NCBI GenBank assembly: GCA_021157585.1
Contig: JAGGWH010000139.1
Location: 1-32,536, forward strand
DNA from: Bacteroidales bacterium
Lineage (GTDB): Bacteria > Bacteroidota > Bacteroidia > Bacteroidales > UBA12170
Reading direction: 5' to 3'
Length of the DNA: 32,536 bases
In this document: positions 14,125-20,572 of the stretch, piece by piece
Numbering within the stretch: the first letter of the stretch is position 1
How the letters are laid out: each line of letters opens with the position of its first letter
Position numbers and translations under genes: made by a program
The notes under the pieces: model-generated
The model's input: the letters and a program-made list of their open reading frames with translations, nothing else
Told to the model about the DNA's origin: nothing
The model's database searches: none

Positions 14125-15228
14125 CTAGAAACCAATCAATAATCCTAATCCACCGGCAATTAAACCCACTGCTACATTAATAGCCTTCATGACCAAAAAA
14201 CTTTTACGTGATTCGGCAAGCAAGGGTAATGCTCCATGTCCATCCTGAACAATAGAACTAGCAAGTAATATGCTAAAGGGAATCATCCCTTGAAAAAAGA
14301 GGATAATAAATATAAAATGAGGTCCGGATTCAGGAATTATGCCGATAACTACAGCTAATATCAATATCAACCACAAATTATCTGTTATCCAATCTTTTAC
14401 ATCGTAAAACTGATCGAGCATGCCTACAAGCAATAGAGCGGAAAATGTCCACAACAATACTTTCAAAAAGTGCTTTTTAATTACATGTCCCCAGAGATGA
14501 TCTTCTAAAAAGTGGTCGCTCGACAATAAAAATATAGCCAAAGCACTAACAGAAATAAGTATAAAAGTAGCTTTTATCCAATTAAAATGATGATGTGCCG
14601 TATCTGCAATGTCTTTATGAATTTGTCCATCAACTATACTAAAACTAACTTGTTCATGACCCATTACACCCGACAGTAAAGCAAAAAGGAATAATATTAT
14701 TCCGCCAATCAATAATGCTCGTGTAAAAGTAATATTTCGTATATTTTCCAGTATACTTCTTGGTTTTAGAACTGCAGAATCTACTTCGTGTTCGTGAATA
14801 ACCAAATGTCCGGGAGGCACACAAAAGAAATCAAATCGCTTACCAAAAACCGTTAAAAGCCATCCAACCAATATTGCAATTATAAAAATAATCCCATTAA
14901 GCCAAAGAGCAGCTTCCGGAATAATAGAGAACATAACAAAGGCTTCATCTCCTGATGTGGCAATCATTACGGTTACGAGAGCAGCAAATTTCACAATTCC
15001 GTGAGCATATAAAGAAACAACGGTATAAGCTCCTAAACATCCGGGAATTACTCCCATAAAAGCAGCAAATACTAATTGTAAAAAAGGTGAATCTTTTAAG
15101 TGCTTAGCCCAGTTACCACGTGATTTAACATTTAAAAATTCGATTATCAGCATCATTACCAGAACAAAGCTGGTAATCATAATCGACTGTTTAATGATGG
15201 GGACTAAAATAGCAAGAAATGTTTCCAT
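14125..15228 (-). CDS. Putative 10TM heavy-metal exporter (ArsP_2/DUF2899-like)
   Basis: A 367-residue membrane protein with about ten hydrophobic segments in two halves. The pattern resembles the family named putative 10TM heavy-metal exporter (ArsP_2, formerly DUF2899), whose members are variously annotated as arsenic efflux or putative manganese transporters. Conserved-looking features are GVIPGCLGAYTVVSLYAHG and ATSGDEAFVMF in the first half, and the matching GIIPESGPHFIFI and VQDGHGALPLLAESRKSF in the second. The soluble middle is histidine-rich (VIHEHEVD, DTAHHHFNW, SSDHFLEDHLWGH), which suits metal binding. The substrate is not known. It lies 87 bases downstream of the Nramp-like gene but has its own consensus promoter. 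Confidence 0.72.
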   Translation of the reverse strand: METFLAILVPIIKQSIMITSFVLVMMLIIEFLNVKSRGNWAKHLKDSPFLQLVFAAFMGVIPGCLGAYTVVSLYAHGIVKFAALVTVMIATSGDEAFVMFSIIPEAALWLNGIIFIIAILVGWLLTVFGKRFDFFCVPPGHLVIHEHEVDSAVLKPRSILENIRNITFTRALLIGGIILFLFALLSGVMGHEQVSFSIVDGQIHKDIADTAHHHFNWIKATFILISVSALAIFLLSSDHFLEDHLWGHVIKKHFLKVLLWTFSALLLVGMLDQFYDVKDWITDNLWLILILAVVIGIIPESGPHFIFIILFFQGMIPFSILLASSIVQDGHGALPLLAESRKSFLVMKAINVAVGLIAGGLGLLIGF

Positions 15229-15315: not shown

Positions 15316-16560
15316 CTATAACATAAAACGCCAAACCAAATAAAACACGCTAAACAAACTCAGAAAAACCATTCCTATCCACGCATAAACCAATAACCAT
15401 TTTTTAGGTTTTAAATCTTCCGGAAAATGCGAATGGGTAACAGCTTTATAATTTAAAATTGCTAAAACCGGTGCTGCAACAAAAGAAATAGTGGTCGCCA
15501 TATCTATAATAAAACGCATAGATTGACCAAAATAAATCAGCAATGCCAATGTTCCAAAAATAGTAATCAACATCCAAGTCGTATAAGGAAGCATACTCTT
15601 TTTGTTTTTCATTTTCAGAGCAGGAAACAACAATTCTGTTGTAGGCTGCATCACTCTTGGATAAGCATCAAGAACAGTAACCGTTGTAGAAAACATAGTT
15701 GTTAAAGCTGCAATAGCAATAAGCCAATATGCCCAATTACCCAAAGATGTTGTATACATATTGATAAGCTGTCCGGCAAATTCTACACCATTAGCCGAAA
15801 GCTCTTTTCCCGAACCATACATAACAAAAGCGCCTAAAGATACAAATCCCATAGCAAGAAAAGCAGTACCTATATAGCCAAAATTAAAATCAAACAAAGA
15901 CTCTTTTAAAGTGGGTTTATGTCCGCTAAGTTCAAACTTAGCAACTGTCCAGCTTGAATGCCAAGTTGAAATATCAATGGGTCCCGGCATCCAACCCACT
16001 AAAGCAATTAAAAAAGCTAAATCTGTTGCATTACTCCAATCAAAACTTGGGGCATCAACAGTTTTAAGATCAAATGCGGCTATTACTGCTATTAAAGTAG
16101 AAACGGTAAGAGTTATAATAATTATCTTGATTATTTTATCGAGAGCTGAAAATTTTCCGCTTAATAAAACAAACATGGTAAAAAATAGTATTATAGCAGT
16201 TAAGCTATTAGCACTAAGTGTAATACCAAAAATATTCCCCAACAAAGCCGCTGTAACTACGGTAACGGCTGCCTGCAATGCAAACATAGTGCTTACGGTT
16301 AACAGAGCAAATATTCCAAGAGCCCATTTACCTGTTTTATAATAGCCGTGCACTAAGGATTTCCCTGTTGCAGTTGCATAGCGAGGAGCAAATTCGAAAA
16401 ACGGATACTTTATAACATTAGCAGCAATTACCACCCAAATCAATTCAAAACCATAACTGGCTCCTGCTCTTGTAGATTGCACCAAATGAGAAACTCCCAC
16501 AGCAGCTCCGGCATACAACAATCCCGGACCGAGAGTCTTCAACAAAACTTTTATGTTCAT
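15316..16560 (-). CDS. Nramp-family-like transporter with altered metal site
   Basis: A 414-residue membrane protein with about eleven hydrophobic segments and the Nramp (SLC11) layout. The N-terminal GPGLLYAGAAVGVSHLVQST aligns with canonical Nramp TM1, but the metal-binding DPGN motif reads G22-V23-S24-H25, so both the Asp and the Asn ligands are absent. The TM6 Met-Pro pair is kept (GWMPGPID, Met191-Pro192). YGFELIW and ATATGKSLVHGY also match the family. Canonical members import Mn2+ or Fe2+ with protons; for this subgroup the substrate cannot be assumed. It starts 26 bases after the dnaX stop and probably shares its transcript. The exporter-like gene follows. Confidence 0.82.
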   Translation of the reverse strand: MNIKVLLKTLGPGLLYAGAAVGVSHLVQSTRAGASYGFELIWVVIAANVIKYPFFEFAPRYATATGKSLVHGYYKTGKWALGIFALLTVSTMFALQAAVTVVTAALLGNIFGITLSANSLTAIILFFTMFVLLSGKFSALDKIIKIIIITLTVSTLIAVIAAFDLKTVDAPSFDWSNATDLAFLIALVGWMPGPIDISTWHSSWTVAKFELSGHKPTLKESLFDFNFGYIGTAFLAMGFVSLGAFVMYGSGKELSANGVEFAGQLINMYTTSLGNWAYWLIAIAALTTMFSTTVTVLDAYPRVMQPTTELLFPALKMKNKKSMLPYTTWMLITIFGTLALLIYFGQSMRFIIDMATTISFVAAPVLAILNYKAVTHSHFPEDLKPKKWLLVYAWIGMVFLSLFSVFYLVWRFML

Positions 16561-16586: not shown

Positions 16587-18401
16587 TTAGAATTCCAGTT
16601 CTAAATTCAAATTATCTTTTAATTTTTTCAAGTTAGGATTTTTCTCCACCATAGCCTTATATCTTTCGGCAGGCTGAATTATTCTCACACTATTTCCGTT
16701 TTCAATAATTTTAATATCAGACTTTAATTTATAATTATTTAAACGAACTCTAAGCAGTTTCATCAATTCAAACTTTTTCTCATCTAAAACACTTTTTTGA
16801 GCATCGTTATGAACTCGTAATTCAATTATAAAACCGTCTCTAAGTACCGCTTTATTTGTTTTTAATGTAGCATATAAACCCTGATTATGTTTAATGCGGT
16901 CTAAAAAAATATTGAATACCTTATCTAAATCATCCTGAGTAAATTCATCGGCAATATCTTCCTTACCAATCATATACGCATCAGGATTAACATCTTCCAG
17001 TTTAGAATTCTCTTCAGCTTTTATTGAAACTCCCAAGCCAATTCCTTTTGGCATACGCTTTACGGAAGTAGTTGATTCTTCAACTTTTGTTTGAGAAGGA
17101 ACAGCCTGTTCTTTTATTTCGGGCTCAGATATTTTTGTACTAACCACAGTATCCTCTTTAGCCTTTTTCTCTATAACGGGGGCTACATATGGTTTTTTTT
17201 CTTCAATAGATGGTGGCGATGCTATTCTTTCTTTCGCTTTCTTCTGTACGGGTAATGCAGGGATTTGTTCTTTAGAAACTGACTCTGATATACCACTTCC
17301 CAAAGCTACCATTTGCATTAAGGTAAGCTCAATTAACAATCGTTTATTATTACTTGCCTTATAATTTACATCGCATTGAGTATTCAAATCTAAAGCTTTA
17401 AGCAAAAAGGCTGAAGAAAATTTATTTGAATTATTGTAATATCTTTTCCTAATAGATGCCGATGTTTCGAGCAAATCAATAGTTTTCGCATCTCTGCTTA
17501 CCAACAGATTGCGCAGATGTTCGCCTAATCCTATTAAGAAATGCTGACCATCAAATCCACGCTCAATAATATCATTGAAAATAACTAAAACAGAGCTTAT
17601 ATCTCCACTTAAAAACTGGTCAGAAATTTTAAAGAAATAATCATAATCTAAAACATGAAGATTCTCTACTACCTTTTGGTAAGTCACATTTCCTGATGTA
17701 AAACTCACTAATTGATCGAAAATAGACAATGCATCGCGCATGGCACCATCAGCCTTTTGAGCTATCAGGTGCAAAGCTTCTTCATCGGCTTGCACATTCT
17801 CTTTCTCGGCAACAAAGGCCAAATATTTGGCAATATCAACAACATTTATACGCTTAAAATCAAAGACCTGACAACGCGATAAAATTGTAGGTATAATCTT
17901 ATGCTTTTCGGTCGTTGCCAAAATAAATTTAACATAAGGAGGTGGCTCTTCTAATGTTTTAAGAAATGCATTAAAAGCCGCTTGCGAAAGCATATGCACC
18001 TCATCAATAATATATACCTTGTATTTACCTACCTGAGGCGGAATACGAACTTGTTCTACCAAACGACGAATATCATCAACAGAATTATTCGAGGCAGCGT
18101 CAAGCTCCATTATATTAAACGAAGCATTCTGATTAAAAGAAAGACAAGATTCACACTCATTACAAGGCTCAATTACATCAGGGTTATTTTCTAAATCGAG
18201 ATTCAGACAATTAATTGTTTTAGCAAATATACGTGCCGAAGTAGTTTTACCAACTCCACGCGGACCTGTAAACAAATATGCCTGAGCTAAATAATGATTT
18301 TTAATGGCATTCTTTAATGTATTTGTGATCGCTTTTTGACCTACAACCGTATCAAAAGTTGCCGGTCTGTATTTTCGTGCCGAAACGATAAAATTTTCCA
18401 T
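16587..18401 (-). CDS. dnaX: DNA polymerase III subunit gamma/tau
   Basis: A 604-residue AAA+ clamp-loader subunit. It drives loading of the beta clamp and, through its C-terminal tau region, ties the loader to polymerase and helicase. Walker A is GPRGVGKT at 46-53. Zinc ligands are Cys65, Cys80, Cys83 and Cys86, Walker B is IIDEVH at 131-136, sensor 1 is LATTE at 161-165 and the SRC box is at 175-177. The region after about 375 is a low-complexity linker rich in Lys, Glu and Pro, then a tau-like C-terminal domain (about 490-604). A run of eight A residues at codons 401-403 could allow a truncated gamma form. The ATG is at 18401. Confidence 0.95.
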   Translation of the reverse strand: MENFIVSARKYRPATFDTVVGQKAITNTLKNAIKNHYLAQAYLFTGPRGVGKTTSARIFAKTINCLNLDLENNPDVIEPCNECESCLSFNQNASFNIMELDAASNNSVDDIRRLVEQVRIPPQVGKYKVYIIDEVHMLSQAAFNAFLKTLEEPPPYVKFILATTEKHKIIPTILSRCQVFDFKRINVVDIAKYLAFVAEKENVQADEEALHLIAQKADGAMRDALSIFDQLVSFTSGNVTYQKVVENLHVLDYDYFFKISDQFLSGDISSVLVIFNDIIERGFDGQHFLIGLGEHLRNLLVSRDAKTIDLLETSASIRKRYYNNSNKFSSAFLLKALDLNTQCDVNYKASNNKRLLIELTLMQMVALGSGISESVSKEQIPALPVQKKAKERIASPPSIEEKKPYVAPVIEKKAKEDTVVSTKISEPEIKEQAVPSQTKVEESTTSVKRMPKGIGLGVSIKAEENSKLEDVNPDAYMIGKEDIADEFTQDDLDKVFNIFLDRIKHNQGLYATLKTNKAVLRDGFIIELRVHNDAQKSVLDEKKFELMKLLRVRLNNYKLKSDIKIIENGNSVRIIQPAERYKAMVEKNPNLKKLKDNLNLELEF

Positions 18402-18615: not shown

Positions 18616-19788
18616 ATGATTAAACAAGAAGAAGCATTTAAAATTTTAAAACAATCTGTTTTTAAACTGGGAACAGAATTAATTCCATATCAAAATAGTT
18701 TAGGCAGAATTTTAGCCGAAAATGTATATTCAGATATGGATATGCCACCTTTTAATAAATCGGCTGTAGATGGCTACGCTTGTCGTAAGCAAGACTTAGG
18801 AAACGATTTGGAGCTTCTCGAAATTATTCCTGCCGGAATAGCTCCCACCAAAAGTATTGGATCAAATCAATGCTCTCAAATTATGACAGGAGCGGAAGTT
18901 CCTGAAGGTGCCGACACTATTATTATGGTTGAACATACCGAAACAATAAATAAAAAAATAAGGTTCGTTCATAGTAAAACAAACTCGAATATTTGTGCTA
19001 TTGGTGAAGACATAAGAAAAGCTGATTTAGTACTTGAAGATGGAACATTAATTAAAGCACAACAAATTCCTGTTTTAGCTTCTGTTGGAAAGGTATTTAT
19101 CCACGTTTATCGTCAACCAAAGGTAGCTGTTATTTCAACCGGTGATGAGTTAGTTGAACCACATATTATCCCACAAACTTCGCAAATAAGGAATAGCAAT
19201 GCAGCACAGCTGATGGCTCAACTTAAACAATTAGGTTTGGAAGGACGTTATATTGGTATTGCTAAAGATAGTCCGGAATCTACCCGAAAAATGTTAGAAG
19301 AAGCTCTTGACAGTAGCGATATTGTTTTACTCTCAGGTGGCGTTTCTATGGGCGAATTTGATTTTGTCCCTGCAATTCTCGAAGAAAAAGGTATCAAAAT
19401 ACTATTTAAAAGTTTGGCTGTGCAACCCGGCCGACCAACTGTTTTTGGAAAAAAAGAAGGTCAGTTCTTTTTTGGACTTCCCGGAAATCCTGTCTCTTCC
19501 TTTGTACAATTTGAATTATTGGTAAAACCATTAATTTATAATTTGATGGGATACGATTTTAAACCTCTATCATTAAAAATGCCTATGGGTGTTGAATATA
19601 CCCGTAAAAAAGCTAAGAGAAAATCTTATATTCCGGTTTATTTTAACGAAAATAGCGAAGTAATACCGGTAGATTATAATGGTTCCGCTCATATCCATTC
19701 CTATGTTAAAGCCGATGGAATGATTTATATAAACATAGGCGAAACAACACTAAAAAAAGGACTTATAGTTGATGTACGACAGATTTAA
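18616..19788 (+). CDS. moeA: Molybdopterin molybdenumtransferase MoeA
   Basis: A 390-residue enzyme that inserts molybdate into adenylylated molybdopterin, the last general step of molybdenum cofactor synthesis. Family motifs are MPPFNKSAVDGYA near residue 43, IMTGAEVPEGADTI near 89, AVISTGDEL, the LLSGGVSMGEFDFV substrate-site loop, QPGRPTVFG and GLPGNPVSSF. Length is normal. The ATG at 18616 is chosen over the GTG at 18598 because the promoter -7 box overlaps the latter. The end overlaps moaA by 17 bases, so the two are coupled. I see no molybdate transporter, MoaE/MoaD or molybdoenzyme in the window. Confidence 0.95.
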   Translation: MIKQEEAFKILKQSVFKLGTELIPYQNSLGRILAENVYSDMDMPPFNKSAVDGYACRKQDLGNDLELLEIIPAGIAPTKSIGSNQCSQIMTGAEVPEGADTIIMVEHTETINKKIRFVHSKTNSNICAIGEDIRKADLVLEDGTLIKAQQIPVLASVGKVFIHVYRQPKVAVISTGDELVEPHIIPQTSQIRNSNAAQLMAQLKQLGLEGRYIGIAKDSPESTRKMLEEALDSSDIVLLSGGVSMGEFDFVPAILEEKGIKILFKSLAVQPGRPTVFGKKEGQFFFGLPGNPVSSFVQFELLVKPLIYNLMGYDFKPLSLKMPMGVEYTRKKAKRKSYIPVYFNENSEVIPVDYNGSAHIHSYVKADGMIYINIGETTLKKGLIVDVRQI

Positions 19789-20572
19789 TAGAAAAATTAA
19801 CTACTTACGCATTTCTGTTACCGACCGTTGTAATTTACGTTGCGTATATTGCATGCCGGCCGAAGGCGTAGATTTAATATCGCATAAAGATATTTTAAGC
19901 TTCGAGGAGATTGTAGACTTTACAAAAAAAGCCGTTGCTGATGGTGTTGATAAAGTTAGAATTACGGGAGGAGAACCACTTGTAAGACACGATATTATTA
20001 AACTAATTAAAAGTATCGGAGAAATTAAAGGCATTAAAGATTTTGGAATGACTACCAACGGAATACTTCTTCCAAAATATGCTGAACAATTAAAAGCCGC
20101 AGGCTTGATGCGAGTAAATATTAGTTTAGACACTATGAATCCGCAACGTTATAGGGAAATTACACGATTGGGAAATATTGATGATGTTTTTGCCGGTATT
20201 GAAGCAGCTAAAAAAGCTGAATTATTTCCCATCAAGATAAATTGCGTTATAAAAAAATCGCGCTATGAACCCGATGCCGTAGACGTTACTGAATATTGTA
20301 AAGCTAAGGGATTAGAAATCCGGTATATACACGAAATGAATTTGGAAACAGGCGAATTTTCAATAGTAGAAGGTGGCGAAGGTGGCGATTGCAAAAACTG
20401 TAACCGCTTAAGATTAACAGCTAACGGAAATGTAATGCCCTGTCTTTTCTCCAATTTAGCTTATAATGTCAGAGAACTAGGTATAGAAAAATCTATAGAC
20501 GAAAGTTTAAAAAATAAACCCAAAAGCGGAACGACTAATCATATTAACCATTTTAGTAATATTGGAGGTTAA
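19772..20572 (+). CDS. moaA: GTP 3',8-cyclase MoaA, compact form
   Basis: A 266-residue radical SAM enzyme that, with MoaC, converts GTP to cyclic pyranopterin monophosphate in molybdenum cofactor synthesis. The N-terminal cluster motif is DRCNLRCVYC with Cys20, Cys24 and Cys27, and TGGEPL follows at 65-70. The second, substrate-binding 4Fe-4S cluster is carried by Cys207, Cys210 and Cys224 (CKNCNRLRLT then PCLF). The protein ends in Gly-Gly, the C-terminal motif needed by MoaA. Compared with usual lengths of about 320-340, some 50 residues are missing between the barrel and the second cluster. All key residues remain, so I read it as a short variant, not a broken gene. The ATG at 19772 overlaps moeA. 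Confidence 0.88.
   Translation: MYDRFNRKINYLRISVTDRCNLRCVYCMPAEGVDLISHKDILSFEEIVDFTKKAVADGVDKVRITGGEPLVRHDIIKLIKSIGEIKGIKDFGMTTNGILLPKYAEQLKAAGLMRVNISLDTMNPQRYREITRLGNIDDVFAGIEAAKKAELFPIKINCVIKKSRYEPDAVDVTEYCKAKGLEIRYIHEMNLETGEFSIVEGGEGGDCKNCNRLRLTANGNVMPCLFSNLAYNVRELGIEKSIDESLKNKPKSGTTNHINHFSNIGG

Follow-up and report, generated by a model that had tools for sequence, protein, structure and literature searches.

A gene within the window analysed here (the whole stretch of 32,536 nucleotides from a Bacteroidales bacterium) specifies a transporter which has the predicted fold of the SLC11 (Nramp) proteins, in which the canonical DPGN motif of transmembrane helix 1 (TM1) is replaced by GVSH, and which belongs to a distinct clade, here named GxSH. 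The contribution of this study lies in the definition of that clade, with its conserved residues, its range and its relation to MntH, and in a corrected reading of TM6. It is proposed, with confidence evenly poised between acceptance and doubt, that the window protein is a divalent metal importer whose site has been rebuilt from a TM1 histidine and a TM6 acid. Databases label GxSH proteins as “Nramp family divalent metal transporter” although the residues which define metal binding are absent. If they are metal carriers, they show the extent to which a site can be rebuilt within the fold and may represent a missing importer where MntH is absent; if another substrate is carried, many annotations are misleading. 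Either outcome bears on the origin of metal specificity within the LeuT fold, a current question for Nramp laboratories.

The transporter gene and its predicted fold

The open reading frame, which the preliminary description had recorded without its strand, is a real gene of 414 codons (Table 1). Its product scores 57.9 bits (E 1.2e-15) against the Pfam Nramp model PF01566, the curated cut-off of which is 29.8, and 72.8 bits (E 3e-20), above the cut-off, against NCBIfam Nramp_1, while falling far under the cut-offs of the MntH-specific NCBIfam models. Substitutions which separate the gene from its relatives L004 and L005 are concentrated at third codon positions (188 and 197, respectively, versus 65 and 64 at positions 1 and 2 together), representing an approximately threefold excess over positions 1 and 2 combined. 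The gene is thus established beyond chance by its Pfam and NCBIfam scores, its SLC11 fold matches and this third-position excess, and it is near certain that its product is an SLC11-fold member. The protein represents a branch distinct from ordinary Nramp within a known transporter superfamily. A 143-residue frame which lies antisense within the gene (15911-16342, forward strand) looks like a chance shadow reading frame.

Table 1. Features of the window that are discussed in the text
Feature	Position	Strand	Evidence or remark
ArsP_2 family gene, 10-TM putative heavy-metal exporter, downstream	14125..15228	-	PF11449, 118.2 bits; NF037962, 134.5 bits
GVSH-type Nramp-related transporter gene (window gene)	15316..16560	-	ORF of 414 aa, ATG start; Pfam, NCBIfam, AlphaFold2
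TM8 charged pair codons, D298-A-Y-P-R302	15655..15669	-	D298 in 116/117 rows, R302 in 111/117 (K in 5)
TM6a/TM6b break codons, M191-P192-G193-P194-I195-D196	15973..15990	-	DSSP break in model
TM1 motif codons, G22-V23-S24-H25 in place of DPGN	16486..16497	-	GVSH in 115/117 distinct core rows
DnaX-like gene (by eye), upstream	16587..18401	-	Adjoins the gene in 14 rows, all of them close relatives

An AlphaFold2 model of the window protein, built with 68 family rows, reached a pLDDT of 89.6 and a pTM of 0.89. All of the top 24 Foldseek matches to this model are SLC11 or Nramp-related structures, with TM scores of 0.77/0.80 against DraNramp, and the best VIA-align match is outward-open apo DraNramp (6d91; Z 38.7, with 384 residues aligned at an rmsd of 3.4), lower scores being obtained for EleNRMT (Z 35.0), a YcsG model (Z 33.9) and the amino-acid carrier AdiC (Z 33.1). 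A placement outside the SLC11 fold, which the preliminary description had named as a refuting outcome, is not the case, and its view of a distinct SLC11-fold subgroup without the canonical ligands is borne out by the Pfam and NCBIfam assignments, the fold model and the tree described below. Because amino-acid carriers score close behind the Nramps, the fold alone leaves the substrate unnamed. DSSP assigned the TM6a/TM6b break to residues 191 to 196 and TM1 to one helix (residues 12 to 36), unbroken at positions 22 to 25; as the canonical-Nramp control for the two breaks, a model from only 9 rows with a pLDDT of 56.4, was too poor to serve, nothing is concluded from the unbroken TM1.

Phylogeny and range of the GxSH clade

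A scan of 84,980 species genomes returned 139 relatives; the 80 retained derive, by record title, from Bacteroidota, Nitrosomonas, Nitrotoga, Methylomonas and a few others. GGSH proteins were present in plasmid-collection records of Neisseria gonorrhoeae, Photobacterium and Pseudoalteromonas, with 35-37% identity over nearly the full length, and more distant relatives carry GASH (Azospirillum and Skermanella) or GSSH (Haladaptatus). Two entries of that collection, NZ_CP119140.1 and NZ_CP119142.1 (N. gonorrhoeae, 2.17 Mb each), look like chromosomes filed as plasmids. For alignment A1, a filter at 85% identity reduced the homologues to 70 rows including the query, 68 of which entered (the truncated L056 and L008 were left out).

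The tree, inferred from a 60-row set minus L126, established the clade: support was 100/100 for GVSH plus GGSH, 99/98 for all 28 GxSH rows and 62/30 for GVSH alone (59 rows). Since GVSH alone reached only this last value, GxSH is considered the clade to name. In the midpoint drawing, the DPGN, GPGT, GTGS and GAGD rows and two NRMT-like rows all fall outside it, the deeper joins being unsure on account of long branches, chiefly those of Haladaptatus and L018. The tree of GVSH-type homologues which had been suggested as a check thus sets the GxSH rows apart from canonical, NRMT-like and GAGD proteins. Four genomes with Nitrosomonas or Methylomonas loci (G217, G218, G220 and G229) gave no PF01566 match, while all four were matched by A1, and surveys based on PF01566 consequently undercount the GVSH clade.

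The absence of DPGN, on which the preliminary description had centred, is real but not special to the window gene, as it is common to the related rows and to other Nramp-related groups. Loss of this motif is of a known kind: the literature already distinguishes several groups, most of them uncharacterised. A 2026 preprint (PMC12873925) describes the Nramp-related proteins as paraphyletic, DPGN and MPH giving way to a variety of residues, and as uncharacterised save for two groups, one NRMT-like and the other, “G-motif 3”, containing MntG; PMC13060092 gives the specificity of most Nramp-related proteins as unknown, and PMC9606685 treats an outgroup separate from NRMT. Judged on TM1, TM3 and TM6, the window protein is Nramp-related in the usage of PMC12873925, which takes in superfamily members that lack DPGN and MPH and also the proton-pathway residues of TM3 and TM9. 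Among literature titles and abstract openings, none was found which describes a GxSH group, and nothing relevant linked Nitrosomonas with Nramp; a literature search for transport or metal results on any GxSH protein found none. The gonococcal GGSH gene is probably NGO1455, since it is the sole PF01566 match in the gonococcal record. In PMC1802743, NGO1455 is classed as a putative NRAMP transporter; its level there is 2.6-fold up under FNR plus nitrite, with no enrichment in ChIP, and a 2026 in-silico paper names it as well.

Conserved residues of TM1, TM3 and TM8

Residue counts were performed after the removal of identical sequences (130 rows reduced to 123, comprising 117 core and 6 outlying rows), with L196, a GAGD-type non-member, staying among the 117. 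TM1 of the window protein reads GPGLLYAGAAVGVSHLVQSTRAGASYGFELIW, and G22, V23, S24 and H25 correspond column for column to D-P-G-N in the L-INS-i multi-family alignments (the larger of which holds 60 rows), precisely as had been claimed. GVSH is missing only from L195 (GGAN) and L196 (GAGD) among the core rows, and the six outlying rows display GGSH, GASH or GSSH. Histidine occupies position 25 in 115/117 core rows and in 6/6 outlying GxSH rows, so that, in terms of alignment columns, no other candidate side chain of TM1 is as well conserved as His25, and its earlier nomination as a candidate ligand is supported. Across the superfamily the same column contains N, G, D, H, T, S or E; because the residue changes by group (N in canonical Nramp, G in NRMT-like rows, D in GAGD rows and H here), position 25 is regarded as group-specific. 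L195 (G234:C25:178826-180052) is the sole clade member without His25; Met191 is also replaced, by Thr, while Asp196 and Asp298 are kept, and its neighbours resemble, by eye, genes for pantothenate kinase and for a protein of outer-membrane assembly.

The preliminary description made no mention of several further features of the clade, namely Asp/Glu196, Asp298, Arg302, a near-invariant Trp190 and the lost TM3 Glu. Between residues 82 and 110 (TM3), 97 of the 117 rows hold no acidic residue, 19 hold one and 1 holds two, and within the TM3 core (88-107) an acidic residue occurs in only 2/117; judged from these columns, the TM3 Glu of canonical Nramp is lost in the GxSH clade. The TM8 pair D298 and R302 is present in 6/6 outlying GxSH rows and absent from the DPGN, GPGT, GTGS and GAGD rows shown in the 60-row alignment.

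Register of TM6

Conservation around the TM6 break is near complete: W at 190 in 116/117 (Y/F in the GASH and GSSH rows), M at 191 in 114/117, P at 192 in 116/117, and, at 196, D (108 rows), E (8 rows) or T (1 row), to which may be added a conserved Trp204; for residues 190 to 197 this is, among the 80 loci of the species-genome scan, partly the product of selection, as these loci were found with peptides including WMPGPIDI. Loci from the other genome searches are free of this bias, and the TM1 GVSH was in no search pattern. Residue 193 is more variable (A 65, T 19, I 14, G 11, S 8) and is never H.

It had been stated that the TM6 Met191-Pro192 pair of Nramp is kept. The pair is indeed present and near-invariant, but its homology with the canonical Met-Pro is doubtful, most alignments placing Gly193 on the Met. 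An ungapped register, with Gly193 on the canonical Met and Pro194 on the Pro, was obtained with phmmer, with a profile alignment against ScaDMT and with the L-INS-i multi-family alignments, and hhalign gave the same result for the GPGT and GAGD groups; when run on two DPGN profiles, it set Met191 on the canonical Met at the cost of a two-residue gap. The ungapped register was weighted higher because GPGT and DPGN rows align together gap-free, and Met191-Pro192 is probably not the canonical Met-Pro pair. The GxSH clade is accordingly written, in this register, as GxxH-WxxA/T/G/S/I. Met191 and Asp196 both lie inside the TM6 break in either register, since the break in the model spans 191 to 196.

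Proposed mechanism and comparison with known transporters

Canonical Nramps are defined by DPGN and MPH (PMC10185341), and their site has been abbreviated as DxxN-A/CxxM, that of NRAT as DxxN-AxxT and that of NRMT as DxxG-TxxA/T (PMC8806188). All three retain the TM1 Asp, which the GxSH clade lacks. With canonical SLC11 proteins (DraNramp, ScaDMT, EcoDMT, DMT1 and NRAMP1), the window protein shares the LeuT fold, the GPG opening of TM1 and the broken TM6; it differs from them in lacking DPGN, in reading MPG instead of MPH, in the loss of the TM3 Glu and in its extra TM8 Asp/Arg pair. Gly in place of the TM1 Asp is common to GxSH and to the “G-motif” Nramp-related groups including MntG/YcsG, as seen in the GAGD, GPGT and GTGS rows; GAGD-type rows, which are taken to be near MntG, form a separate clade with Asp where GxSH has His. 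The GGSH proteins of Neisseria, Photobacterium and Pseudoalteromonas carry the TM6 and TM8 residues of the window protein and differ from it by Gly for Val in the motif and Glu for Asp at 196.

We infer that a GxSH protein would import a divalent metal by LeuT-fold alternating access. With the TM1 Asp gone, the site would comprise the invariant His25, at the TM1 Asn position, and the conserved Asp/Glu196 in the TM6 break, to which Met191 may contribute a soft ligand. In DraNramp, a TM6b His (H232) located beneath the site acts together with the TM3 Glu (PMC10185341); both are gone in the GxSH clade, in which a TM1 His and a TM6 acid are gained. Acid and His would thus in effect exchange sides between the pseudo-symmetric TM1 and TM6 helices, this being a reading of columns and not of geometry. 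A site of His plus carboxylate suggests a transition metal (Mn, Fe or Zn) rather than Mg, and canonical proton coupling is not expected since the TM3 Glu is lost. Metal transport by remote or Nramp-related proteins has precedent by analogy: Bacillus subtilis YcsG/MntG raises cellular Mn (PMC10448178), and Acinetobacter baumannii MumT, with <25% identity to reported NRAMPs, is needed for Mn accumulation (PMC5050338). Against a metal importer stands the loss of both the TM1 Asp and the TM3 Glu, residues the loss of which abolished transport in BfraNramp (PMC12873925), as does the apparent position of Trp190, which in the ungapped register falls on DraNramp A227, the backbone carbonyl of which binds metal (PMC10185341).

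A bolder form of this proposal, which we regard as unlikely though worth stating, holds that GxSH represents a separate solution to metal transport: the acid would have passed from TM1 to the TM6 break and the His from TM6b to TM1, and the TM8 Asp/Arg pair would take over from the charge network of TM3 and TM9. The outcome would be an uncoupled transporter whose selectivity, for instance for Zn or Fe, is unseen in characterised Nramps, and which is widespread in Bacteroidota and also present in ammonia oxidisers and Neisseria.

Nramps belong to the APC superfamily. The main rival explanation, somewhat improbable in our judgement, is accordingly that a small organic solute is carried, the GxxH of TM1 and the TM6 aromatic forming a pocket like that of APC amino-acid carriers. 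The loss of all canonical metal ligands together with the TM3 Glu, the conservation of Trp190 and Trp204, the modest distance between AdiC and Nramp in the VIA-align scores, the preponderance of recurrent neighbours without a metal link (see below) and the former annotation of YcsG as a 5-oxoproline importer (PMC10448178) are all consistent with such a substrate. Conversely, the top structure and sequence matches are Nramp/SLC11 proteins, the remote superfamily members YcsG and MumT behave as Mn importers, and an invariant His with a near-invariant Asp/Glu in the break is what a metal site needs.

That the protein transports Mg2+ in the manner of NRMT, its site being enlarged and hydrated, appears highly improbable. 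NRMT (EleNRMT) resembles the window protein in being Nramp-related, in having lost the Asn of the site and in probably having lost the Met, and the ungapped Met position of the GxSH clade is mostly Ala, Thr, Gly or Ser, comparable to the A/T of NRMT. The likeness drawn in the preliminary description is nevertheless loose: NRMTs keep the TM1 Asp, their Asn position is Gly and TM6 contributes a Thr, the corresponding residues of the window protein being Gly, His and Trp, and the clade as a whole, with GxxH and WxxA/T/G/S/I in the ungapped register, departs from the NRMT signature of DxxG in TM1 and TxxA/T in TM6. Histidine is, moreover, a poor Mg ligand. In the tree, the two NRMT-like rows stand apart from the GxSH rows, and the search of 10 loci for riboswitches, described below, returned no M-box. 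A different substrate for the GxSH subgroup, as suggested previously, is plausible.

Co-occurrence with canonical Nramp genes

Among 148 sampled Bacteroidota genomes, 32 carry a GVSH gene (A1 match) and 46 a PF01566 match of at least 378 bits, and the two occur together in 0/148, where 9.9 would be expected (Fisher p 1.7e-6); lineage confounds this distribution, as family f81 contributes many of the 32. Counted by genus, 20 and 26 of 83 genera are concerned, with none shared (Fisher 2e-4; the 26 genera with canonical genes were counted by hand). TM1 was checked in 24 of the 46 strong-match genomes, 23 of which have DPGN, with one (L238) unread. In 25 of the 32 GVSH genomes the TM1 motif was determined for 31 further Nramp-type loci: 23 are GPGT, 7 GTGS and 1 of another G type, with no DPGN among them. 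The remaining seven GVSH genomes are the window's own (G000; second gene GPGT), G114 (unmatched by PF01566), G150 and G178 (in each of which the GVSH gene itself is the one match) and G091, G181 and G192, the best PF01566 E values of which are 3.8e-9, 2.2e-9 and 9.5e-4, respectively. The window's genome has two PF01566 genes, and because the second of these (L001, G000:C15:2599-3633; TM1 AAFIGPGTITT) is of the GPGT type, it appears to be without a DPGN Nramp. DPGN and GVSH are both present in G226, a genome from outside the sample.

These data hint that the GVSH clade lives where MntH is absent; since related genomes are not independent, the mutual exclusion is a hint and no proof of MntH replacement. 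They also bear on a reading close to that of the preliminary description, which we consider improbable, namely that the protein is a proton-independent Mn2+/Fe2+ uniporter which replaces MntH with ordinary transition-metal selectivity and in which the Met191 thioether is the kept soft ligand. The lack of overlap with DPGN-type genes in the 148-genome sample, the hhalign placement of Met191 on the canonical Met and the joint loss of His25 and Met191 in L195, as if the two formed one site (a single case), favour such a uniporter. However, Met191 lies two positions off in the register of most other alignments, and the GPGT and GTGS genes that GVSH genomes also hold (31/31 loci being of G types) could equally provide the stand-in for MntH.

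Gene neighbourhood

The window gene is separated by 87 bases from the ArsP_2 gene and by 26 bases from the DnaX-like gene. The ArsP_2 gene is possibly an operon partner, within its own genus only: the arrangement recurs in near relatives, in a cluster of 16 rows, several of which are duplicates of one genome. Literature titles and abstract openings yielded nothing on the function of PF11449/DUF2899.

Clustering of neighbours across 116 rows, redundant loci included, identified as recurrent elsewhere an MsbA-like ABC exporter (17 rows), LipA (by eye; 9), a PAQR/HlyIII protein (5) and a thiamine-binding protein (4), with a NupC-like nucleoside transporter in a single row. The MsbA-like exporter lies downstream in Nitrosomonadaceae (L101:9257-11068 and relatives), a Flavobacteriales locus (L066:6102-7919) has it on the opposite flank, and LipA adjoins the GVSH gene in Flavobacteriia. 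Assignment of the Nitrosomonas neighbour as an Atm1/heavy-metal exporter was considered and dropped, as NCBIfam ranks MsbA-like models first, under their cut-offs. The most suggestive metal link among the neighbours is found in one Bacteroidales lineage (L190, 5629-9386), where genes for a ZnuA-like protein, a ZnuC-like ABC ATPase and a ZnuB-like ABC permease start 4 bases downstream, the family test covering the ZnuA-like protein only. A search of 10 loci for riboswitches (Mg M-box and Mn yybP-ykoY) found none, only a tRNA being seen.

Because the neighbours vary by lineage, context leaves the substrate unnamed, and a shared operon partner was abandoned as a substrate clue, the partners being lineage-bound and mutually discordant and the ZnuABC-like set confined to one lineage. 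For the proposed divalent metal importer, the complementary distribution and the minority of metal-linked neighbours (ArsP_2 in its own genus, the Znu-like set of L190) count in favour; the mostly metal-unrelated neighbours, the lineage-following distribution, G226 and the lack of a riboswitch at the 10 loci count against. Elsewhere in the window, a MoaA-like gene (19769-20572; 267 aa) may be shortened, its C-terminal domain covering only 53-113 of the 128 positions of Mob_synth_C.
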